Positions 3 to 27,100 of a stretch of 27,688 nucleotides of DNA are shown one piece after another; the stretch's first letter is position 1; every line of letters begins with the position of its first letter. The stretch is from a virus, in IMG/VR virus record IMGVR_UViG_3300043313_000532, positions 1 through 27,688 of that record; one strand, given 5' to 3'. The translations under genes were made by a program, and so were the position numbers. Below the pieces are notes generated by a model. It was not told the DNA's origin and searched no databases. It was given only the letters and a program-made list of their open reading frames with translations.

Positions 3-311
3 AATACCGATTCATTGAAGGCGTATCGAGAAGCGTTGCAGCAGGAATGGGAGACAAAGAACGATCCCACGAATGCGAAGGAAACGGTTAAAACTACGAA
101 GGAAGAGATTAGAAGGCGTCTGCCAGATTATCTCGCCAATATGCGAGGTCTAGCAATGGGCGCCATGTCTGAAAGTGTAAGATATCAGGCTAACAAATTC
201 TTGATCGAAGCAGTTCTCTCTTCAGGTGGGGTTGGACAGAAAGATACACTTGCCGATCTTCTAGAAGAAATGGAAGAGGCAGAAAAGGAGGGTAAAGCGA
301 GCGATGCCTAG
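3..311 (+). CDS. Probable small terminase subunit, 5' end cut by the window
   Basis: The reading frame is open to the left edge, so this is the C-terminal part of a longer protein; an in-frame TTG at 15 is the first possible start but is probably internal. The visible ~100 residues are helical and charged. The stretch LPDYLANMRGLAMG followed by SESVRYQANKFLIEAVL resembles the helical oligomerisation segment of small terminase subunits, where residues around a conserved R/A/A pattern stack into a ring. The tail is acidic (DLLEEMEEAEKEG). Small terminase subunits recognise phage DNA and hand it to the large subunit. The large subunit lies 7.4 kb downstream, which is an unusual separation. The next gene overlaps by 8 bases. 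The assignment rests on pattern and position only. Confidence 0.45.
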   Translation, partial: NTDSLKAYREALQQEWETKNDPTNAKETVKTTKEEIRRRLPDYLANMRGLAMGAMSESVRYQANKFLIEAVLSSGGVGQKDTLADLLEEMEEAEKEGKASDA

Positions 312-2387: not shown

Positions 2388-3845
2388 ATGGCTGCTAGAT
2401 TTTCGTATGCAACGGGTAATCGTCTTACTCAGACGTTGCCGTTTACTGACCTGAGTAATATCACGTTGATGTTTTGGTTCATACTGCATTCATCAAGTGC
2501 AGCAAGAGCCGATTTAATGTGTTACGGATATGATGATGGTGTTGCCAGTGGCGATGGATTTGAACTTGGCACACCTTTGGGTGGAGCAGTTATCTATATC
2601 TCCGAAGGTGGAGTTGTTCTTACTAGAGGCACCGGTTATACTGCTGTCATTGGTAGACGCTACTCTATAGCTGTCACTCGTAAGGCTAGCGGAAACTGGA
2701 TAATGTATATCGACGGTAAGTTTTACGAGTCAATGACAGCTGGTCCAGCTACGCCTGCTATTGCTCCTGTACTAACAATTGGTAGTCCTCTAGGAAATGT
2801 TCCTGCATGTGACTCATCTATTGGTCCTTTTATGGTATGGAAGTACGCATTAGAGGCTGGTCAAATTCTCGACGTACATCAATTTGGGAAACTAAAGGGT
2901 GCAGAACTTGAAACAGCATCGAGATACTTCAATCTAGACGAAACTACTCTACTTCCAGATCAAGCTAAAAGTGCAACCAGGCTTGCAGTTACTGGAACAG
3001 TTTCACTTGCACCTAGCCTTCCACAAGTTGAAAAGATTCTATCTGAAATTCGATTTAAAAGACCGGGGACAATTATTAGAGCTGCATTGACACACTATGA
3101 TTCTAAGATGCCTGAAGTAGCTAGAGACTTTTCTGGTTCAACTTCTAATTATTTAACTGTTGGAGATGTTCCTGCTCTAGATATCCTTGGCGATCAACTT
3201 ACATTACATGCTTGGATCATTACTAATACACTAAGTGGCAATCCCACTATTATTAGTAAATGGAATCAAGGCGGCGGTCAACAACAATACACATTTGCAT
3301 TACTATCTGGTAGTATTTTTGGTGGTATAGGCGATGGTGTTGGGGGCGGAGATTTTGTTACTGGTAGCGCACTCACAGTTGGTAGGCTATACAATGCTGT
3401 TTTGCGAAAGGCTGGTACAGGAACAGGTTCCTTACAAATCTTTCTAGATGGAAGTCAAGTTGGTGTTACTAACTCAACACGAGTAATGACTAATACTACT
3501 GCTGGATTCCACATCGGTCGTTTGGATAATGCAGTAGAGCCTTGGAATGGTAAAATTAGTCATCCAGCTGTTTGGGACGCTGCTCTAAATAATACTGAGA
3601 TAGAGCAACTAGCTAGAGGCGTGTCACCACGTTTGATCCGTCCAGGTAGTCTGAAGGGTTATTGGCCTATGGTCGAATATCCTTCTGCTAGAGATTATAG
3701 TCCATATAATAACCCGGCGACATTGGTTGGAACAGTCCCATCTATACCGTTTCCACAACCAGTCATAGAGCGTCAATTCTCTGTCGGTATTGGTGAAGCT
3801 CTCTTAGCTGCTGTTCCCTATGTTACAAGGGTGGCTAGTTATTAA
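2388..3845 (+). CDS. Tail-fibre or receptor-binding protein with two LamG-like domains
   Basis: 485 residues containing two concanavalin A/LamG-type jelly-roll domains, at about residues 20-205 and 245-450. Signatures are the order WFILHS, then RRYSIAVTRK, then WIMYIDGKFYES, then GPFMVWKYAL in the first, and LTLHAWI, then KAGTGTGSLQIFLDG, then WDAALNNTEIEQLARG and GYWPMVEYP in the second. LamG folds usually bind sugars, so host-envelope recognition is the likely role. The second domain clearly resembles the single LamG domain of the next gene; the first has diverged. The ATG has no visible ribosome binding site. The stop overlaps the next start as TAATG. Confidence 0.75.
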   Translation: MAARFSYATGNRLTQTLPFTDLSNITLMFWFILHSSSAARADLMCYGYDDGVASGDGFELGTPLGGAVIYISEGGVVLTRGTGYTAVIGRRYSIAVTRKASGNWIMYIDGKFYESMTAGPATPAIAPVLTIGSPLGNVPACDSSIGPFMVWKYALEAGQILDVHQFGKLKGAELETASRYFNLDETTLLPDQAKSATRLAVTGTVSLAPSLPQVEKILSEIRFKRPGTIIRAALTHYDSKMPEVARDFSGSTSNYLTVGDVPALDILGDQLTLHAWIITNTLSGNPTIISKWNQGGGQQQYTFALLSGSIFGGIGDGVGGGDFVTGSALTVGRLYNAVLRKAGTGTGSLQIFLDGSQVGVTNSTRVMTNTTAGFHIGRLDNAVEPWNGKISHPAVWDAALNNTEIEQLARGVSPRLIRPGSLKGYWPMVEYPSARDYSPYNNPATLVGTVPSIPFPQPVIERQFSVGIGEALLAAVPYVTRVASY

Positions 3846-4792: not shown

Positions 4793-5110
4793 ATGCCAAT
4801 CGGTGTTGTAGCTCAGGGTACTAAAGAGAATTTCCAGGTTCTTATCACTGACCGCGAGGGTATCGTAACCACCCTCGCTTCATCGGGACCGAAGTTCGAT
4901 GTAATGGACGTTAACGATGCTTTCAAGTATGGAGATGGTACATATGCAGGTGCAGCTTCGGCTACTGCGGCTCTTATGGTTATCTCTTGTATTGTTGATA
5001 CTAATGTTGGTGGGGTTTGGGCTGAAGGTGAGTATCGACTATTCGCATGGTTTACAGTATCTTCTGAAATAATTCGTAAGGGACCATTCTTCTTCGATGT
5101 AATAGAGTAG
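4793..5110 (+). CDS. Small beta-domain virion protein, paralogue of 7439-7753
   Basis: 105 residues, mostly beta strands. It shares with the product of 7439-7753 the pattern FDV near the middle, then a central VIxCxxDTxxGGxWAxxEYR and a closing PxxFxxxFxV, over comparable length. A ribosome binding site (AAGGTG, 4782-4787) precedes the ATG. The pattern suggests an Ig-like or BppU-N-like sandwich used to cap or attach tail fibres, but no family is recognised for certain. Both paralogues directly follow a gene containing the YLDLQPSG unit, so the pair probably works with that fibre protein. Confidence 0.65.
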   Translation: MPIGVVAQGTKENFQVLITDREGIVTTLASSGPKFDVMDVNDAFKYGDGTYAGAASATAALMVISCIVDTNVGGVWAEGEYRLFAWFTVSSEIIRKGPFFFDVIE

Positions 5111-5515
5111 ATGGATGAATCCTCGCCTGACGCCACGCGAGAGAATAGTATTCGATCTACTAAGAAAAGGGTACACCAGGCCACAAGTAGCGAAGGAACT
5201 GAACATATCGTCGGAGACAGTGAAGGCACAGGCAAGTACGATAATCCGGAAATTTCGAGCAAGGAACATGGTTCATGCAGTAGAACTTTATCATCGGAGT
5301 CCGCAAGCAGAAGGGCAAGAAATCATATTAACGACAAGATTGAAATACCGTTTGAGAATATTGATGAATCAGTTAGAGAGCGAGTTGAGGGACGAACTGG
5401 TAGAAGTCTTGAGGCAAGTTATGAGGGTCTGACCAAATTGATGGATTCTGCAATAGAAGTATACTACGATATGGACAAGAGTAAATCTGCGAGACGACGT
5501 AAAGGAAGGAGATAA
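5111..5515 (+). CDS. Overlapping reading frame, possibly the true C-terminus of the LuxR-type protein
   Basis: 134 codons open in the frame one base back from the LuxR frame. The first ~70 residues are hydrophilic, Ser/Glu/Arg-rich and look like a frame shadow. From about 5330 on the translation looks like a real protein (IEIPFENIDESVRERVEG, then YEGLTKLMDSAIEVYYDMD) with a basic end (SARRRKGRR), and codons resemble the neighbouring genes. Its TAA overlaps the next ATG as TAATG, a junction also used at 1366, 3845, 7439, 10613, 14225, 15325 and 16119. Either the LuxR protein enters this frame by a -1 shift, or the sequence has an indel, or this is a separate overprinted gene. No canonical slippery heptamer is visible. 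Confidence 0.4.
   Translation: MDESSPDATRENSIRSTKKRVHQATSSEGTEHIVGDSEGTGKYDNPEISSKEHGSCSRTLSSESASRRARNHINDKIEIPFENIDESVRERVEGRTGRSLEASYEGLTKLMDSAIEVYYDMDKSKSARRRKGRR
5115..5432 (+). CDS. Lone LuxR/GerE-type helix-turn-helix protein, reading frame uncertain at the C-terminus
   Basis: 105 residues in this frame. Residues 5-60 match the LuxR (GerE) DNA-binding domain: LTPRERIVFDLLRKGYT, then PQVAKELNISSETVKAQAST and IIRKFRARNMVHAVELY. No receiver or autoinducer domain is present. After about residue 60 codon choice departs from the neighbours: eight leucines are TTA/TTG/CTG and none is CTA or CTT, and most Ile codons over the whole gene are ATA. A second frame (5111-5515) is open across the whole gene and ends in a TAATG junction with the next gene, so the true protein may switch to that frame after the helix-turn-helix. 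A transcriptional regulator inside the virion gene block is unexpected. Confidence 0.7.
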   Translation: MNPRLTPRERIVFDLLRKGYTRPQVAKELNISSETVKAQASTIIRKFRARNMVHAVELYHRSPQAEGQEIILTTRLKYRLRILMNQLESELRDELVEVLRQVMRV

Positions 5516-5805
5516 TGGCTAATCAGCAACATTACGCAGTTGAGGGAGAAGGATTCGTCCAGCTTCCTGTAGATAGTACCGGAAAGCGTATTCGTCATGT
5601 AGCAGTAGACGTTTATGATCCTGTTGCTGAAACGTACACTACTGTTTATATGCCAACCATGACTGTAGTTGATCCTGATACTGGAAGCATTCAACAGGTT
5701 GTATATGGTGAAGCAAAGGTTCTCGATAGAGACGTTCTTCAATCGCTGGGTGAGATGACTACACTACTTGAAGATATCCGTAATCTGCTAATGGAAATTG
5801 CTTAA
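5515..5805 (+). CDS. Hypothetical virion-associated protein, 96 residues
   Basis: Start ATG shares bases with the preceding TAA (TAATG). A ribosome binding site GGAAGGAG lies upstream at about 5504-5511. The N-terminal two thirds is beta-rich (HVAVDVYDPVAETYTTVYMP, TMTVVDPDTG) and the last 25 residues form a helix (VLQSLGEMTTLLEDIRNLLMEIA) that could oligomerise. No family is recognised. It probably acts with the following structural gene. Confidence 0.55.
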   Translation: MANQQHYAVEGEGFVQLPVDSTGKRIRHVAVDVYDPVAETYTTVYMPTMTVVDPDTGSIQQVVYGEAKVLDRDVLQSLGEMTTLLEDIRNLLMEIA

Positions 5806-6497: not shown

Positions 6498-7439
6498 GTG
6501 TATATCGCTACTGAGTATTGGCTCCTTGGGTGGGTAGCTGGTTACGTTGATGCTGCCGAAGTTTACCTTGATCTACAAATCAGTAGTGTTGATGTTCTTG
6601 ATAGTACAGATAGTGCTGAAGTTTACTTAGACCTCCAACCAAGTAGTGTAGAAAATGCACAGTACGTTGAAACAGCGGAGGTATATCTTGATCTTCAACC
6701 GTCGGGCACGGATACCGCTCAATATGTCGAAGCGTCTACTGTATATCTTGACTTGCAGCCAAGTGGTACTGACGTTGCTCAGTTTGTGGATGCTGCAACG
6801 GTTGGGCTTCTTTTCACACCTTCAGGAGCAGATGTACTAGCAGCTATTGAAGCTGCCACTGTTTACTTAGACTTACAACCATCGACAACAGTTGAAGAAC
6901 ACACTACATTCGATGCAGCTACGGTTCTTCTATTGTTCACACCATCGGGTACTGAACAACAGCTATTTCAGTACACGGACTCCGATACTTTATATCTAGA
7001 CTTACAGCCAAGTGGAACGGAGCAACATGATATTCCATCAGCAGGATACACAGATTCCGCAACAGCCAGCTTTCGATTTACCATTAATTCCTCAGATGTA
7101 TCCGAATCTATCGAGGCCGCTACCGTCTATTTTGACTTACAACCTAGCGGTACTGAGCAGCAGTTATTCCAGTACATCGACGCAGCTACAGTTCCATTCC
7201 GATTCACAGTAACATCAACTGACCAATTCATTTATACCGATAGCGCAGTTATTTATCTTGATCTTCAAGTTATCACTCTCATTGCACCAACGATGGACTT
7301 GGAGATTGTTGGTATAAGCCGGCGATGGGTTCTACAGACTACAAAGAGATTTACAACGTATGTTGGACTCAGATGGTTACATCAACTGCAACCACAGAAG
7401 CGATTTGAACTAGCAGGCATGAGAAGGTGGGATGCTTAA
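6498..7439 (+). CDS. Fibre-like protein with twelve tandem YLDLQPSG repeats
   Basis: 313 residues starting with GTG; there is no clear ribosome binding site. A short hydrophobic N-terminus (residues 1-15) is followed by twelve ~20-residue units (16-258). From unit 4 on, two forms alternate: type A (TVYLDLQPSG) and type B (LLFTPSG or FRFT). The last ~40 residues place Arg-Trp or Arg-Phe pairs at Trp277, Phe285, Trp293, Phe303 and Trp311. Alternating polar and hydrophobic residues imply repeated beta strands, hence an elongated fibre or solenoid; that is inference. One unit also ends the LamG protein at 3845-4762. The stop overlaps the next gene as TAATG. Confidence 0.7.
   Translation: MYIATEYWLLGWVAGYVDAAEVYLDLQISSVDVLDSTDSAEVYLDLQPSSVENAQYVETAEVYLDLQPSGTDTAQYVEASTVYLDLQPSGTDVAQFVDAATVGLLFTPSGADVLAAIEAATVYLDLQPSTTVEEHTTFDAATVLLLFTPSGTEQQLFQYTDSDTLYLDLQPSGTEQHDIPSAGYTDSATASFRFTINSSDVSESIEAATVYFDLQPSGTEQQLFQYIDAATVPFRFTVTSTDQFIYTDSAVIYLDLQVITLIAPTMDLEIVGISRRWVLQTTKRFTTYVGLRWLHQLQPQKRFELAGMRRWDA
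6543..7271 (+). repeat. Twelve tandem ~60-base coding repeats
   Basis: Units start at residues 16, 37, 56, 76, 96, 117, 138, 159, 184, 205, 226 and 246 of the 6498 gene, with lengths 19-25 residues. The peptide core is far better conserved than the DNA: the same YLDLQ is written with several codon combinations. Units 5, 7, 9 and 11 are type B and units 4, 6, 8, 10 and 12 are type A, giving a higher-order period near 41 residues. Confidence 0.9.
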
Positions 7440-7753
7440 TGGAAATTCTCAAGAAGAATACCGTCGAACCTCTCGTTGTAGATATGCGCGATAGACTAAC
7501 GACCATCACTAACATGTCTACAGTAACTAACCTTAGGTTCGATGTAATCGGTAAAGACCCTGTTACTGAAGCAGATGTAGTTAAGATCAGTAACGGTGTA
7601 CCTACGACAAATGGGATGAAAGTAATTTGCGTGATCGATACATCAACAGGCGGAGGATGGGCAAGCGCAGAATACCGAGTCTATATCAAGTTTACAGACG
7701 GTTCTACGTCACCCATTTTGTTCGCAGGAAAGTTTCGCGTAGAAGATGATTGA
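7439..7753 (+). CDS. Small beta-domain virion protein, paralogue of 4793-5110
   Basis: 104 residues from the ATG at 7439, which overlaps the previous TAA (TAATG) and lies eight bases after GAGAAGG. A GTG at 7427 is in frame but less likely. It matches the 4793-5110 product: FDV at mid-protein, CVIDTSTGGGWASAEYR against CIVDTNVGGVWAEGEYR, and a C-terminal PILFAGKFRVE against RKGPFFFDVIE. Both are preceded by a YLDLQPSG-bearing gene, so a partner role in fibre attachment is inferred. Its end overlaps the large terminase start by eight bases. Confidence 0.7.
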   Translation: MEILKKNTVEPLVVDMRDRLTTITNMSTVTNLRFDVIGKDPVTEADVVKISNGVPTTNGMKVICVIDTSTGGGWASAEYRVYIKFTDGSTSPILFAGKFRVEDD

Positions 7754-9161
7754 TCCAGATAAGCGTAAGTTTCTCTTCAAGAAGTTAGGCTATAGCCCAC
7801 ACTCGCAAGAACAGTGGGATTGCCACGAATCGACACAGCGGTTTCGTATCCTATGCTGTGGGCGCCGTTGGGGTAAAACGACATTCGGTGGAAATGAACT
7901 AACTGTTGCTGCGATGGATCATACTGATCCTGGATACTATTGGATCGTTGGTCCAAACTACGTTCAAGGTGAAAAAGAGTTTCGTGTTCTCTATCATAAC
8001 ATCGTTGTTAAGTTGGGATTGGGGAATAAGGTAAAGAAGCAATACAATGTTGCTCAAGGTCAAATGCGTATCGAGATGCCCTGGGGAACTATCATCGAAG
8101 TGAAATCTGCTGATCGTAAAGATGGTCTACTAGGTGAAGGTCTTAGAGGCGTCATCATGGCAGAGGCAGCAAGGCATGATAAAGATACATGGGAAATGTT
8201 CATTAGACCAGCATTGTCAGATATTAAAACACGAACTAGTGGTGCAAACGAGCGCGGGTGGGCAATCTTCACGTCTACGCCAAGAGGACATAACTGGTTC
8301 CAAGGTTTATGGTTAATGGGACAGATTCAATCTATCCATCCAGATTATGATTCATGGCGCCTTCCGTCTTGGTCGAATAAATTTGTCTATCCCAACGGAA
8401 GAGAAGATAGTGAGATTAAGTTGATTGAAGATACTGTGTCCCCACAGTTCTTCGCACAAGAGATTGCTGCTGAGTTCACTTCATTCGTTGGACGCATCTA
8501 TGATGCATTCGTTCCGAAGGTTCATGTTCCAGAAAAAAGCATACAGTATCAACCTAGTTGGAGAAACTATTGGGTATTCGACTATGGTTTCGCTGATCCG
8601 TTTGTTTGCTTAGATATTATGGTTGATCCTGAAGATAACGTTTATGTGTGGAGAGAGTATCAGGAACGATATCAAGCTACATGGGACCATGCTCATAATC
8701 TTCAGAACCGTGTTAATCCAGAAGGATTCCATGTAGATGCAATGTTTGGTGATCCTCGTGGTGCAGATGCAGCAGCAACTATTGCACTAGTCCTTGGGCA
8801 AGTCTTTTCTGAAGATGTACCAAGAGAACAAGGATATGAAGCAATCCGACGTTGGCTTAAGATTCAGCCCAACGGTAAGCCCAAATTGTTTATAGATCGA
8901 GGTTGTACTGAGCTTATTAGACAGATGGAAATGCTGCATCTAAAGGAAGCTAAGGACGGAAAGAATGCTCCAGAAGAACAGCATGATTACGACGATCACG
9001 GCCCTGACGCACTTAGATATTTCTTCAGTCAATACTTTGTGCTTGGTGCAGGTGCGCGCCTTAGTGACGTGTACTCTGACCTTGGTTTGAAGGGTGAGGC
9101 ATTAACGTACTTTCAGCAACATACACCATTCACAAGACAGACAATTGGGTTCGGAAGGTAA
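7746..9161 (+). CDS. terL: Terminase large subunit (ATPase and nuclease)
   Basis: 471 residues, the usual length. The N-terminal ATPase has a Walker A loop CCGRRWGKTTF (residues 37-47, Lys44) and a Walker B region GVIMAEAARH with catalytic Glu140; the usual Asp before this Glu is Ala139. The coupling motif is FTSTPRGHNWF (175-185). The RNase H-like nuclease domain carries candidate metal-binding acids at Asp279 (FDYGFADP), Asp336 (FGDPRGAD) and Asp417/Asp421 (YDDHGPDALRYF). The protein drives DNA into the prohead at the portal and cuts the concatemer. It overlaps the upstream gene by eight bases and is followed by the portal gene. Confidence 0.95.
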   Translation: MIDPDKRKFLFKKLGYSPHSQEQWDCHESTQRFRILCCGRRWGKTTFGGNELTVAAMDHTDPGYYWIVGPNYVQGEKEFRVLYHNIVVKLGLGNKVKKQYNVAQGQMRIEMPWGTIIEVKSADRKDGLLGEGLRGVIMAEAARHDKDTWEMFIRPALSDIKTRTSGANERGWAIFTSTPRGHNWFQGLWLMGQIQSIHPDYDSWRLPSWSNKFVYPNGREDSEIKLIEDTVSPQFFAQEIAAEFTSFVGRIYDAFVPKVHVPEKSIQYQPSWRNYWVFDYGFADPFVCLDIMVDPEDNVYVWREYQERYQATWDHAHNLQNRVNPEGFHVDAMFGDPRGADAAATIALVLGQVFSEDVPREQGYEAIRRWLKIQPNGKPKLFIDRGCTELIRQMEMLHLKEAKDGKNAPEEQHDYDDHGPDALRYFFSQYFVLGAGARLSDVYSDLGLKGEALTYFQQHTPFTRQTIGFGR

Positions 9162-9164
9162 ATT

Positions 9165-10613
9165 GTGGCAGATAGCTCAGATAAGCGAAACTGGCTAAGT
9201 CGCAGATTGTTCCAGGCTGCCGAATCTCCGGCACCTGATCCAAGAAAGAGAACTACTGGAACCTCGCTAAATGCGAGAGGTTCCGTACCTGTCGAAAAAA
9301 GCGCGATGAGTGAACTAGGTTCATCTCGCGGTGGAGTCACAAGAGACATTGTTCCTGCATTGGGAACAGGCTCGCAAGCTATTCGTATCTATGACCAAAT
9401 GGCGAATAGTGTTGCGTCTGTCGATGTTTCACTTCGTGCCGGTAAGATGCCCATTATGGGTGCGATGTACTTTGTTGATGCTTTCGATGACTCGCCCGAG
9501 TCTGCTGATATTGCAGAGTTCGTAGACTTCAATCTTCTTAGAGGAACAGCAGCACCATTTCTTCTAGTGCTTGAAGATATTCTTCGTATGTACGAATACG
9601 GATATAGTGTCTTTGAGAAAATTTATGAGACTAGAGAATGGGCACCGAAGCGTAGCCGAGCTAACCGTCGTAAATATACGATGTTGAAGAAGCTCGCACC
9701 ACGTCCTACTCCTACGATCAAGAAGATTAACTACGACGACAACGGTGGCCCTCTTAGTGTTGTTCAATCCTCTGTTGATAAGAACAACAAGACGAAAGAT
9801 GTTGAGCTAGATATTTCCAAGCTAATCATCTTCAGCCACAATAAGAAGGGTGGCAATCTAGAAGGTAAGTCAATTCTTCGTACTGCCTATCAGCATTGGT
9901 ACTACGTCGATAACCTCTACAAGATTGATGGTATTCAAAAGGAACGTCACGGTATGGGATTCCCCGTACTAGAGTTGCCAGCTGGATTTACTGATGCTGA
10001 TAAAGCAGCAGCAGAATTGTTAGTTCAGAACATTCGCACTAATGAACATGGTGGAATGGTTCTACCTCCTGGCTTTAAGTTCCATTTTGCAGAACTACCA
10101 GGACAACCCGTTAACGTCATGGAATCGATCGATCACCACAATGGCATGATTATGCTTAACGTGATGGTTCAGTTCCTTATGATGGGTATTCAAGGTACAG
10201 GTAGTGGTGGTAGAGCTACTGCTGGATCGCATCAGGATATGTTCACGAAGTCATTGCGGTATATGGGTAATCTAATCTGTGACTGGATGAACTACTATCT
10301 CGTTCCACAGCTTGTTGCATATAACTTCGATACCGATAGATTCCCGAAACTACAAGTAAGGAACATCGGTGAAACGAAAGACTTGCAACAGTGGGCATCA
10401 GCGATCGCAAATCTTGCTGCACAGAATCTTATCACTCTTGACTATGAGACAGAACAGTGGGTTCGTCAGATTCTCGATTCTCCACCTAAGAAGGGCGGTG
10501 TCCAAACTCCCGAAGCTAACTCAGGTGGCTCTAGCGAGAAGAAAGGTGATGTTGGAACAGACTCAACTGACGCCGGTAATGCTGGCGTACCAACAGATCA
10601 AGCGGGGACATAA
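9165..10613 (+). CDS. Portal protein, DUF935/Mu gp29-like
   Basis: 482 residues, start GTG after GGAAGG. The segment from SVASVDVSLRAG through ADIAEFVDFNLLRG, MYEYGYSVFEKIYE and LIIFSHNKKGGNLEGKSILR is typical of the DUF935 portal family: variable N-terminus, clip region with YGYS/FEK, then a stem and crown. The last ~50 residues are Ser/Gly/Asp-rich and probably disordered. Portals form the dodecameric ring at the capsid vertex through which DNA enters and to which the tail attaches. Order terminase-portal-protease-capsid fits. The TAATG stop/start couples it to the protease gene. Confidence 0.85.
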   Translation: MADSSDKRNWLSRRLFQAAESPAPDPRKRTTGTSLNARGSVPVEKSAMSELGSSRGGVTRDIVPALGTGSQAIRIYDQMANSVASVDVSLRAGKMPIMGAMYFVDAFDDSPESADIAEFVDFNLLRGTAAPFLLVLEDILRMYEYGYSVFEKIYETREWAPKRSRANRRKYTMLKKLAPRPTPTIKKINYDDNGGPLSVVQSSVDKNNKTKDVELDISKLIIFSHNKKGGNLEGKSILRTAYQHWYYVDNLYKIDGIQKERHGMGFPVLELPAGFTDADKAAAELLVQNIRTNEHGGMVLPPGFKFHFAELPGQPVNVMESIDHHNGMIMLNVMVQFLMMGIQGTGSGGRATAGSHQDMFTKSLRYMGNLICDWMNYYLVPQLVAYNFDTDRFPKLQVRNIGETKDLQQWASAIANLAAQNLITLDYETEQWVRQILDSPPKKGGVQTPEANSGGSSEKKGDVGTDSTDAGNAGVPTDQAGT

Positions 10614-12738: not shown

Positions 12739-13746
12739 ATGCCAATGTACGATCCAGGCGCGCTGTATACCGATCCGATTCTTACGGATTTCTCGACAGG
12801 CTATCAGTCGCCTCTATTCTATGCTCTACGACTACTTCCCGAAACGCCGGTAAATACTCAGTCAGGTATTTATCGTGTATGGGATCGTTCTAACCGTGTA
12901 TGGTTCCAGTCTCGTCGTGAACCCGGTTCTGTTGCTAATGAGGTTCGTGGTGGGAAGTGGAGCACAGATACATTCAAGACCGTACAGCACGCACTACAGG
13001 CTGCTGTTGCAGATGAAGAGGATATGGAGCTACAGTCTCAGGGTGGTTATGCTAATCCTGCCTTCGGTGGAGATTTCGATATTAACCCACACGAAGATGC
13101 TGCTGCTCTTGTGTTCGATTCACTACAGCTAGAGCATGAGCTAACGGCTGCTACGCTACTTCGCAATACCGCAACATATCCTGCTGGACATACTATCACG
13201 CTACTTACGGCAGATCAGTGGGATAACTATGCAGGTGCAACTTCCAATCCGATTGACATTCTTCGTGCAGCACTTCTGAAGGTTGAATCGAAGATTGGTC
13301 GTAAACCTAATCGTCTACTAATGAGCACTTTCGGTCAGACGTGGCTAGAGAACCATCCTGATATGGTTGCACGTTTCACTAACTTCACGCTTGCTGATCC
13401 AGAAGCATTCCTTAAGCTAACTGGTTTCGAGGGTGAAATTATTCTAGTTCAGGATGACTGGTACAACGCGAACGATATTCTAGAAGCAACTGAATCACTT
13501 ACTGCCATTTGGGGTAAGGACGTTATTCTTGCATACGTCAATCCTCAGATGACTCTTCGTGATCTTTCGTTCGGTAAGACATTCGCGCAAATCTATCCCG
13601 ATGGTTCAACACGGCCTACGGATCGTTGGCGTGAAGAGAGTCGTATGTCCGATATGGTGAGAACACATTGGAAGTGGGATTTGAAGATTACTTCTTCCAT
13701 TGCTGGTTATCTCATCAAGGACGCATTCGGATCGACGGCTTGGTAA
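12739..13746 (+). CDS. Major capsid protein
   Basis: 335 residues, acidic, with the lengths and motifs of an HK97-fold capsid protein of the family found with DUF935 portals and DUF2190 decoration proteins: N-terminal arm ending in GKWSTDTFKTVQHALQAAVADEE, a long helical spine with EDAAALVFDSLQLEHELTAA, the P-domain region KPNRLLMSTFGQTWLENHPD and the C-terminal WKWDLKITSSIAGYLIKD. A good ribosome binding site (AAGGGAGGG, 12722-12730) precedes the ATG. Leucine codons are strongly skewed: 16 of 33 are CTA and 13 are CTT. Confidence 0.9.
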   Translation: MPMYDPGALYTDPILTDFSTGYQSPLFYALRLLPETPVNTQSGIYRVWDRSNRVWFQSRREPGSVANEVRGGKWSTDTFKTVQHALQAAVADEEDMELQSQGGYANPAFGGDFDINPHEDAAALVFDSLQLEHELTAATLLRNTATYPAGHTITLLTADQWDNYAGATSNPIDILRAALLKVESKIGRKPNRLLMSTFGQTWLENHPDMVARFTNFTLADPEAFLKLTGFEGEIILVQDDWYNANDILEATESLTAIWGKDVILAYVNPQMTLRDLSFGKTFAQIYPDGSTRPTDRWREESRMSDMVRTHWKWDLKITSSIAGYLIKDAFGSTAW

Positions 13747-17137: not shown

Positions 17138-17623
17138 ATGCCACAGGCTACTATCGATAGAGAAGAGACTTTCCGCTACGACCTTAAGACTCTTCCAGCC
17201 AACAATGGCGATCAGGGTGGATACGTTATGCTGCGTCGATTGAGTTTCCATCAGATGATGCAGCGTCGCGATATCGCGTCAAAGATTGGTTGGGAAGAAC
17301 GACGCGCTGCTAAGGGAAGTAAGAAGCAGGAAGAGGAAACTATCAAGGCAATGATGGAGATTATGAATGTTGCCACGATGGAGTATGAATTCCGCCATAG
17401 CATCGTTAGTCATAATCTTGAGGACGCTAGCGGAAGTCTCATCGACTTCACTAATCCCGAAACGTATAAGGCACTTGATCCTCGTGTTGGTCAGGAAATC
17501 GGTAAGTATATCGATGAACTGAATCAAGAGATGGATGAGGATGAGTTGGCAAATTTTCCAACTGCATCCAAGCAATCCTCTGGGGAAGAGACGACGCTGC
17601 CGATTACTTCGGTAGAGAGCTAG
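17138..17623 (+). CDS. Tail-assembly chaperone, short form (G-like)
   Basis: 161 residues from ATG after AGGAG. The protein is charged and helical: LRRLSFHQMMQRRDIASKIGWEERR, then a helix with MMEIMNVATMEYEFRHSIV, and an acidic C-terminus (DELNQEMDEDEL). Position between tail tube and tape measure genes is diagnostic of the lambda G/GT pair. The slippery heptamer at 17551-17557 near the end allows part of the ribosomes to enter the -1 frame and make the longer product. The chaperones coat the tape measure during tail assembly and are absent from the finished tail. Confidence 0.85.
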   Translation: MPQATIDREETFRYDLKTLPANNGDQGGYVMLRRLSFHQMMQRRDIASKIGWEERRAAKGSKKQEEETIKAMMEIMNVATMEYEFRHSIVSHNLEDASGSLIDFTNPETYKALDPRVGQEIGKYIDELNQEMDEDELANFPTASKQSSGEETTLPITSVES

Positions 17624-17829
17624 TTCTCAAATGCATAGACTGGTTGAGAATAGCTCGCTTGTGTAAAGAGCTTCATATTCCACCTAGAGGCGGTGGGCTA
17701 TTGGATCAGCCAGCCCATGAAATCACCATGCTTGATAAAGTGTTTGAATCACACGAGAAGAACGAGAAGCGCAAGCAGGAACTAGATGAGATGCGTAATC
17801 GTAATCGAAAGCGTCACAGTACGAACTGA
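17138..17829 (+). CDS. Tail-assembly chaperone, -1 frameshift product (GT-like)
   Basis: Predicted 230 residues: 140 from the first frame (to the Phe codon 17555-17557), then 90 in the -1 frame from 17557 to the TGA at 17827-17829. The -1 frame opens just after a stop at 17542-17544, right at the slip site, and continues well past the end of the first frame. Its translation looks genuine: SNCIQAILWGRDDAADYFG, then a helix with LVLKCIDWLRIARLCKEL, then HIPPRGGGLLDQP and a charged coiled-coil tail. A lone TTG start at 17644 is therefore not needed. The tape measure gene follows after nine bases. Confidence 0.8.
17551..17557 (+). promoter_or_regulatory. -1 ribosomal frameshift site A AAT TTT
   Basis: In the reading frame of 17138-17623 the bases read A AAT TTT, which fits the X XXY YYZ rule (X=A, Y=T). 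Both tRNAs re-pair on AAA TTT after slipping back one base. The -1 frame is closed only nine bases upstream (TGA 17542-17544). Six bases is too little to judge a stimulatory structure; none was folded. Confidence 0.8.
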
Positions 17830-24806: not shown

Positions 24807-24985
24807 ATGTGATAGTAACGCTCATTCTAATCGCCGTAGTTATCGTAGTGTATAAATTGACCAGCAGACAACTCAATAGCATTCATCTTCTTGTTAACTC
24901 CAATCTGACAAAGGTTAGTGCTGATCTGGAAATTGCTCTAGATCGCATTCATACTCTAGAGGACATTCTGACCAATAAAAAATGA
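24803..24985 (+). CDS. Small single-helix membrane protein
   Basis: 60 residues. A hydrophobic N-terminus (residues 2-18, VTLILIAVVIVVYKL) is followed by QLNSIHLLVNSNLTKV and a helix EIALDRIHTLEDILTNKK. The IHLLVNS segment followed by a coiled coil is a motif I associate with small proteins in actinobacterial phage lysis regions. Overlaps the previous and next genes by four bases. Function unknown; an accessory to the holin is likely. Confidence 0.6.
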   Translation: MNVIVTLILIAVVIVVYKLTSRQLNSIHLLVNSNLTKVSADLEIALDRIHTLEDILTNKK

Positions 24986-25593
24986 GCAGAATCCTTATAT
25001 GGGTAGTTGTTAGTTGCTTTGTAATCGTTGCTAGCGCGCAAGCCGTTGCTGCTTACCGCCAGTACCAAACTGAGCGAGATGTTGAAGTCGTACAGCAAGT
25101 TGTTAAGAAGGGTGTTTGTGCTGAACTTGAAAGTATCGACTGTCTAGCAGCCCTTGAGAAACGTCTAGTAACACATCGTGGTAAACCTGGCGAAGTAGGT
25201 ATACGTGGTCCAAAAGGGCCGCAAGGTGACACTGGAGTTAAGGGTGATAAAGGTGATACTGGTATCAAAGGTGCGAAGGGTACAAAAGGCACCAAAGGAA
25301 CAACTGGTAAACAGGGGAAACAAGGTGTACCCGGAGATACACTAACACAGGAGGAATTAATTGTAGCTATCACAATTTTTTGTAGAGATCATTCTCCAGT
25401 ATGTCAAGGGCCGATTGGTCCACAAGGGCCGAAAGGTGATCCTGGTGAAAAAGGTGACAATGGTAATAATGGGAATAATCCACCAGGACAACCACCTGGC
25501 CCACCTAATCCACCGCCAACAACACCTGCACCGCCAACACCGCCACCTTGTCCAAAACCACCACCTAAGAAACCAAAGCCACCGTGTAAATAG
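24982..25593 (+). CDS. Membrane-anchored collagen-like protein with proline-rich tail
   Basis: 203 residues. Residues 4-24 form a signal anchor (ILIWVVVSCFVIVASAQAVAA). A helix with Cys46 and Cys54 follows. Eighteen Gly-X-Y triplets run from residue 67 to 120, then a 22-residue break (LTQEELIVAITIFCRDH) with Cys134 and Cys141, then eight triplets (143-166). The last 37 residues are largely proline (PPPCPKPPPKKPKPPCK) with Cys190 and Cys202. The arrangement implies a trimer anchored in the membrane and extended into the cell wall, perhaps cross-linked by disulfides. It sits just before the endolysin. A spanin-like or wall-penetrating role is speculation. Confidence 0.7.
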   Translation: MSRILIWVVVSCFVIVASAQAVAAYRQYQTERDVEVVQQVVKKGVCAELESIDCLAALEKRLVTHRGKPGEVGIRGPKGPQGDTGVKGDKGDTGIKGAKGTKGTKGTTGKQGKQGVPGDTLTQEELIVAITIFCRDHSPVCQGPIGPQGPKGDPGEKGDNGNNGNNPPGQPPGPPNPPPTTPAPPTPPPCPKPPPKKPKPPCK

Positions 25594-26887: not shown

Positions 26888-27100
26888 CTATTTTATCATA
26901 CCCGCACGCATAGCAATAACAACACAGTGAGTACGATTACGTGCGCCAAGAGCTTTAGTAATATTTCTCATATGAGACTTGATGCCTTCCTCACTTATAC
27001 CTAGCATCGGACCAATCTCACTGTTGTTCCATCCTTCTGCGACCAACGCCAATACTTCTAGTTCTCGCTCAGTTATTACAGCTAGCTCTACTCTTCTCAT
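26888..27100 (-). CDS. Lone LuxR/GerE-type helix-turn-helix regulator
   Basis: 70 residues, nearly all of it the LuxR-type DNA-binding domain: ITERELEVLALVAEGWNNSEIG, then MLGISEEGIKSHMRNITKALGARNRTH, then CVVIAMRAGMIK. No sensory or receiver domain is attached. Start overlaps the end of the preceding gene by four bases (ATGA). It is the last gene of the leftward unit, so it may set the timing of early or late expression. The second LuxR-type gene at 5115 has only general similarity. Confidence 0.85.
   Translation of the reverse strand: MRRVELAVITERELEVLALVAEGWNNSEIGPMLGISEEGIKSHMRNITKALGARNRTHCVVIAMRAGMIK

Follow-up and report, generated by a model that had tools for sequence, protein, structure and literature searches.

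The window, that is, the whole stretch of DNA analysed here (IMG/VR record IMGVR_UViG_3300043313_000532, 27,688 bases), contains the late operon of a tailed phage, the recognisable genes of which are listed in Table 1 together with the features of the locus under study. Between the genes at 4793-5110 and 5515-5805, two overlapping reading frames are present, with that of 5111-5515 being in the -1 register relative to that of 5115-5432. Viral contigs were searched with both frames and also with the adjacent genes as queries, and five related loci of uncultivated phages were found, namely L015, L007, L016, L017, and the G+C-rich L020; the sequence of L015 recurs identically in L014, which is derived from another assembly. 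Together with the window, these are referred to as the six loci. A homologue of the structural-region gene at 4793-5110 lies directly upstream of the helix-turn-helix (HTH) gene in L014/L015 (80% identity) and in L016 (79%).

Table 1. Coordinates of the locus, of its surroundings in the window, and of candidate starts of orfB
Feature	Position	Strand	Basis or remark
Small terminase-like gene	15-311		phrog_2538
LamG-like and other virion genes			window late operon
Upstream structural-region gene, 105 aa	4793-5110	+	ORF; its TAG abuts ATG 5111
-1-frame ORF, 134 codons	5111-5515	+	ORF; ATG 5111 is an alternative orfB start in this phage
LuxR/GerE HTH-frame ORF, 105 codons	5115-5432	+	ORF
LuxR/GerE helix-turn-helix, frame 0	5115-5298	+	PF00196, PDB matches, codon-phase variation
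Hand-over zone between frames	5301-5321	+	change-point likelihood, column scores
orfB, -1-frame segment to TAA, basic C-terminus in window	5309-5515	+	homologues, codon usage
HTH-frame tail to TGA 5430-5432	5322-5432	+	variation peak at own position 2; non-gene-like codons
TAATG stop/start junction to next gene	5513-5517	+	sequence; same junction in L007, L016
Large terminase	7746-9161
Portal	9165-10613
Major capsid	12739-13746
Candidate orfB start, window	ATG 5111
Candidate orfB starts, L016	ATG 5380 or 5530
Candidate orfB start, L017	ATG 6337
Candidate orfB start, L007	ATG 1770
Candidate orfB starts, L020	GTG 1352 or ATG 1178

The gene that follows orfB occupies a cargo position of the late operon. 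In L015 (5726-6802) and L017 (from 6525), phages that are otherwise divergent, it shares the beginning MDTL(D/E)QIL(E/D)NLW...YVQKNP, while the gene of the window is unrelated to these counterparts. Further downstream, 6498-7439 of the window encodes a protein of repeated units around TVYLDLQPSG(T/V)D, and a single copy of this unit lies close to the end of the gene at 3845 of the window and of that at 4078 of L015. A protein with collagen-like Gly-X-Y repeats is encoded at 24982-25593; its N-terminus has a membrane-like segment, and its end is rich in proline.

In 5115-5432, codons 1-60 encode a GerE-type HTH. The domain is recognised by PF00196 over residues 5-57 with E=1.4e-12 (47.5 bits versus a Pfam gathering cut-off of 23.5), and the PDB matches to NarL, CviR, and GerE (E 2e-6 to 1e-3) stop at residue 56-61; since the matches end there, the end of the HTH is placed near 5285-5298. 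While the HTH itself is like that of the NarL, CviR, and GerE proteins, its position is different. In LuxR/NarL proteins the GerE domain is located C-terminally, whereas here it is an N-terminal unit of about 70 residues that is followed by orfB in another frame. Judging from the HTH, the product would be a small DNA-binding regulator or an accessory protein. A second, stand-alone GerE HTH gene of 70 amino acids is found on the minus strand of the window at 26888-27100; unlike the gene at 5115, it has a normal stop right after the HTH.

The -1-frame segment, orfB, has homologues in the five other loci with identities of 33-59% (from the window, 57% to L015 and 49% to L007), and about 60 residues are conserved. 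Behind the HTH of every locus, the -1 frame encodes the pattern R-x-[AC]-x-[ND]...P[FW]..[IVL]....R.R...RTGR[ST][LI]E.SYE. With an orfB profile, fifteen records were searched, seven of which match (six distinct loci), in each case directly behind a GerE HTH. The first-pass annotation had recommended a comparison with homologues for a continuous protein joining both frames; the relatives have both parts conserved in -1 register, and a same-frame fusion of HTH and orfB was not seen among these 15 records. No further relatives were obtained from other viral contigs or from the phage, plasmid, and prokaryote genome records searched, and for orfB Pfam, PHROGs, NCBIfam, and PDB returned no credible match; the Pfam family CmlA_N was dropped, as it was matched by one member only and below the cut-off. 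A locus of this type was not found reported in the literature searched.

The assignment of coding function to either frame is based on codon-phase variation, conserved columns, and codon usage. Until about 5300, pairwise differences between the loci fall mainly on position 3 of the HTH frame; thereafter they fall mainly on its position 2, which is position 3 of the -1 frame. When three pairs picked so as not to share branches were pooled, the differences at HTH-frame positions 1/2/3 amounted to 76/52/116 in the HTH (166 sites each, P=1e-11) and to 29/60/39 in the orfB span (112 each, P=8e-5), the swap of phase between the two regions having P=3e-6. As a single change point, 5310 gives the best fit, and 5301-5313 lies within about three log units of likelihood. 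The first columns of the -1 frame to be conserved in all six loci are R at 5309 and N at 5321 (D in L020), followed by E, P, and F. Over 5321-5428, the codon usage of the -1 frame is gene-like with 0.27 bits/codon (true genes, 0.34 +- 0.17), versus -0.40 for the HTH frame. Upstream of about 5300, in turn, the protein sequence of the -1 frame is not conserved, and stops interrupt it in L015, L007, and L017. Codon usage does not discriminate as to a dual coding of the HTH region: the composition of the HTH depresses the score in L015 and L007 too, both of which have -1 stops.

From codon-phase variation, conserved columns, and codon usage it follows that the HTH-frame tail, which runs down to the TGA at 5430-5432, is a shadow of orfB without selection of its own. 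This accounts for the odd leucine codons to which the first-pass annotation had drawn attention: all eight in the tail are TTA, TTG, or CTG, as compared with 201 of the 694 leucine codons of the other genes (P=6e-5). In line with that annotation are also the two competing frames, the HTH in the frame of 5115, the coding character of the 5111 frame after about 5310-5330, and the TAA at 5513-5515 as a real gene end. The TAATG junction at this gene end is likewise real; however, seven other boundaries of this kind had been claimed, and six true stop/start junctions were counted in the window (1366, 3845, 10613, 14225, 15325, and 16119).

No stop interrupts the HTH frame across the linker in any of the six loci, the differences in linker length are all multiples of three, and the register is always -1. 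Both frames are selected on their own side of the junction, in -1 register and in the relatives as well, which is what is expected of programmed -1 frameshifting. The locus is very probably a genuine coding unit made of two frames, with the hand-over lying near 5301-5321. Two of the alternatives raised earlier can be dismissed on these grounds. An indel, be it a sequencing error or a recent frameshift mutation that split a once-continuous gene of the window, would agree with the fact that both parts would form one plausible protein; it is, however, highly improbable, because the same -1 register is found in five divergent relatives, one of which, L015, is identical in two assemblies, and these relatives exclude an assembly error. 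An indel would be compatible with them only if all had inherited a single ancestral loss, after which the -1 part was kept under selection for long. Overprinting, by which both C-terminal halves would be functional, is ruled out by codon phase and codon usage, as the HTH-frame tail is not under selection.

How ribosomes would enter orfB is a separate question. On the mechanism that is slightly preferred here, the HTH would be read in the frame of 5115 to about 5300-5320, where a fraction of the ribosomes would slip back by one base and continue in the -1 frame until they reach the TAA at 5515, thereby synthesizing a fusion protein of about 133 residues consisting of HTH, linker, and orfB; the remaining ribosomes would terminate at the HTH-frame stop, releasing an HTH with a meaningless tail. 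Such a family-wide recoding, with a slip somewhere in the hand-over zone, may be the source of orfB. It is favoured by the same layout in five relatives, always in -1 register, by the hand-over of selection, and by the occurrence of orfB, in the records searched with the profile, exclusively behind the HTH. A further argument is provided by L015, in which, from the last stop upstream to orfB, the -1 frame contains no ATG, GTG, TTG, or CTG, the nearest ATT/ATC lying 39-43 codons upstream; the differences between the orfB segments of the window and L015 are distributed 11/5/16 over -1 codon positions 1/2/3, which indicates purifying selection. An orfB that is selected yet has no usual start would have to be reached by recoding or by a very unusual start. 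Against recoding stands the lack of the usual signals. No slippery heptamer X_XXY_YYZ is in frame at the junction in any of the six loci, as the first-pass annotation had stated for the window, and an in-frame Z_ZZN tetranucleotide, which is the minimal site of nearly all, though not quite all, -1 shifts (Atkins et al., PMC5009743), is absent from the window and L016, while its presence in L015, L007, L017, and L020 is not above chance (34-46% per linker, compared with random gene stretches). Pseudoknot-free folding of the downstream RNA is ordinary, with z between -1.3 and 1.3. Of the earlier proposal of a -1 shift, the conserved -1 register of the two parts is confirmed, whereas the shift that would join them finds no heptamer, Z_ZZN, or RNA structure in the window. 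The PF motif offers a U_UUN at 5350, with TTT in five of six loci, which at first made it an attractive slip site; it was ruled out, since the change point and the residues conserved in the -1 frame (R at 5309, N at 5321) are all located upstream. Transcriptional slippage was rejected as well, as in the window the zone offers no more than three A in a row.

The main competitor, a separate overlapping orfB gene whose own start codon would lie within the HTH gene or shortly ahead of it, is a serious possibility. An ATG or GTG is present somewhere upstream in the -1 frame in five of the six loci, with a Shine-Dalgarno-like sequence at ATG 5380 of L016 and ATG 1178 of L020, and in the window the -1 frame is free of stops back to ATG 5111, directly after the upstream TAG. 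Over the HTH of the window, no stop occurs in 69 codons (P=0.0004 from genome codon usage; P=0.019 when permutation is limited to the synonymous codons of the gene itself), and among the 69-codon stretches of the other window genes none of 6016 has an open -1 frame. L016 has a single stop at the very beginning (open run, P=0.004 by permutation). Over the six HTH genes, -1 stops are depleted with a combined P=6e-4; the control detected no such depletion in 105 stretches of other window genes, and the frameshift gene G has 17 stops versus 17 expected. This depletion upstream of the hand-over is not predicted by a pure shift. L016 and L017 are, moreover, most alike from the inner ATG onward, with 4 differences in 24 versus about 10 in the HTH, and this rise of nucleotide conservation also counts against recoding. 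On the other hand, L015 is without a usual start, the inner ATGs of L007, L016, and L017 are not preceded by a clear Shine-Dalgarno sequence, and over the HTH the -1 frame is not conserved in sequence and is blocked by stops in L015, L007, and L017, so that an own start would have to lie at a different place in each phage. The first-pass annotation had named, as an outcome that would speak against its shift, homologues in which the frame stops at the corresponding TGA and the next gene has a start of its own; the HTH frames of L015 and L007 do end there, yet this applies only by half, because their tail is the shadow of the conserved -1 frame. Mixed routes, in which the window and L016 would use a long overlapping ORF from an upstream ATG and L015, L007, L017, and L020 a -1 slip at A_AAR/G_GGG, are unlikely. 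They would explain why both genomes without a Z_ZZN have a -1 frame that is open back to a start, but with six loci only this association can be due to chance, and a single mechanism would be simpler for one conserved layout.

An internal standard is provided by the tail-assembly chaperone pair G/GT of the same phage (17138-17829), which, as in lambda, consists of overlapping frames, the second in -1 register, selection being handed from one to the other. Its junction at 17551-17557 carries the -1 heptamer A_AAT_TTT; the T frame is without an own ATG and is 73% identical in the relatives L052 and L053, both of which keep AAATTTT. Since this shift uses a conserved canonical heptamer, the contrast with the HTH/orfB locus, which has none, is real within one phage. 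With a plain ORF caller, T would be given a TTG start at 17644, and its true beginning would be lost. In insertion sequences of the IS1/IS3 kind, an HTH-containing upstream ORF is joined to a downstream ORF by a -1 frameshift. The present locus resembles these in having the HTH upstream and a second module in the -1 frame; it is different in that orfB has about 60 residues, no transposase and no slippery heptamer are present, and the locus lies inside a phage structural operon.

Whichever route is taken, gene callers would annotate only 5115-5432 or only 5111-5515, which results in a wrong protein either way. It is conceivable, albeit rather doubtful, that a GerE HTH is joined here to a new C-terminal domain by -1 recoding that proceeds without a recognised slippery site or structure, the product being a conserved phage regulator. 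If recoding is true, the locus would represent a -1 event that has phylogenetic support, belongs to neither the tail chaperone nor the transposase class, and lacks a known slip signal; the rule by which a Z_ZZN is the least that a -1 shift requires could be tested on it directly. If it is not, the six loci would represent a well-dated gene pair, the second member of which starts inside the first by means of a shifting start codon.
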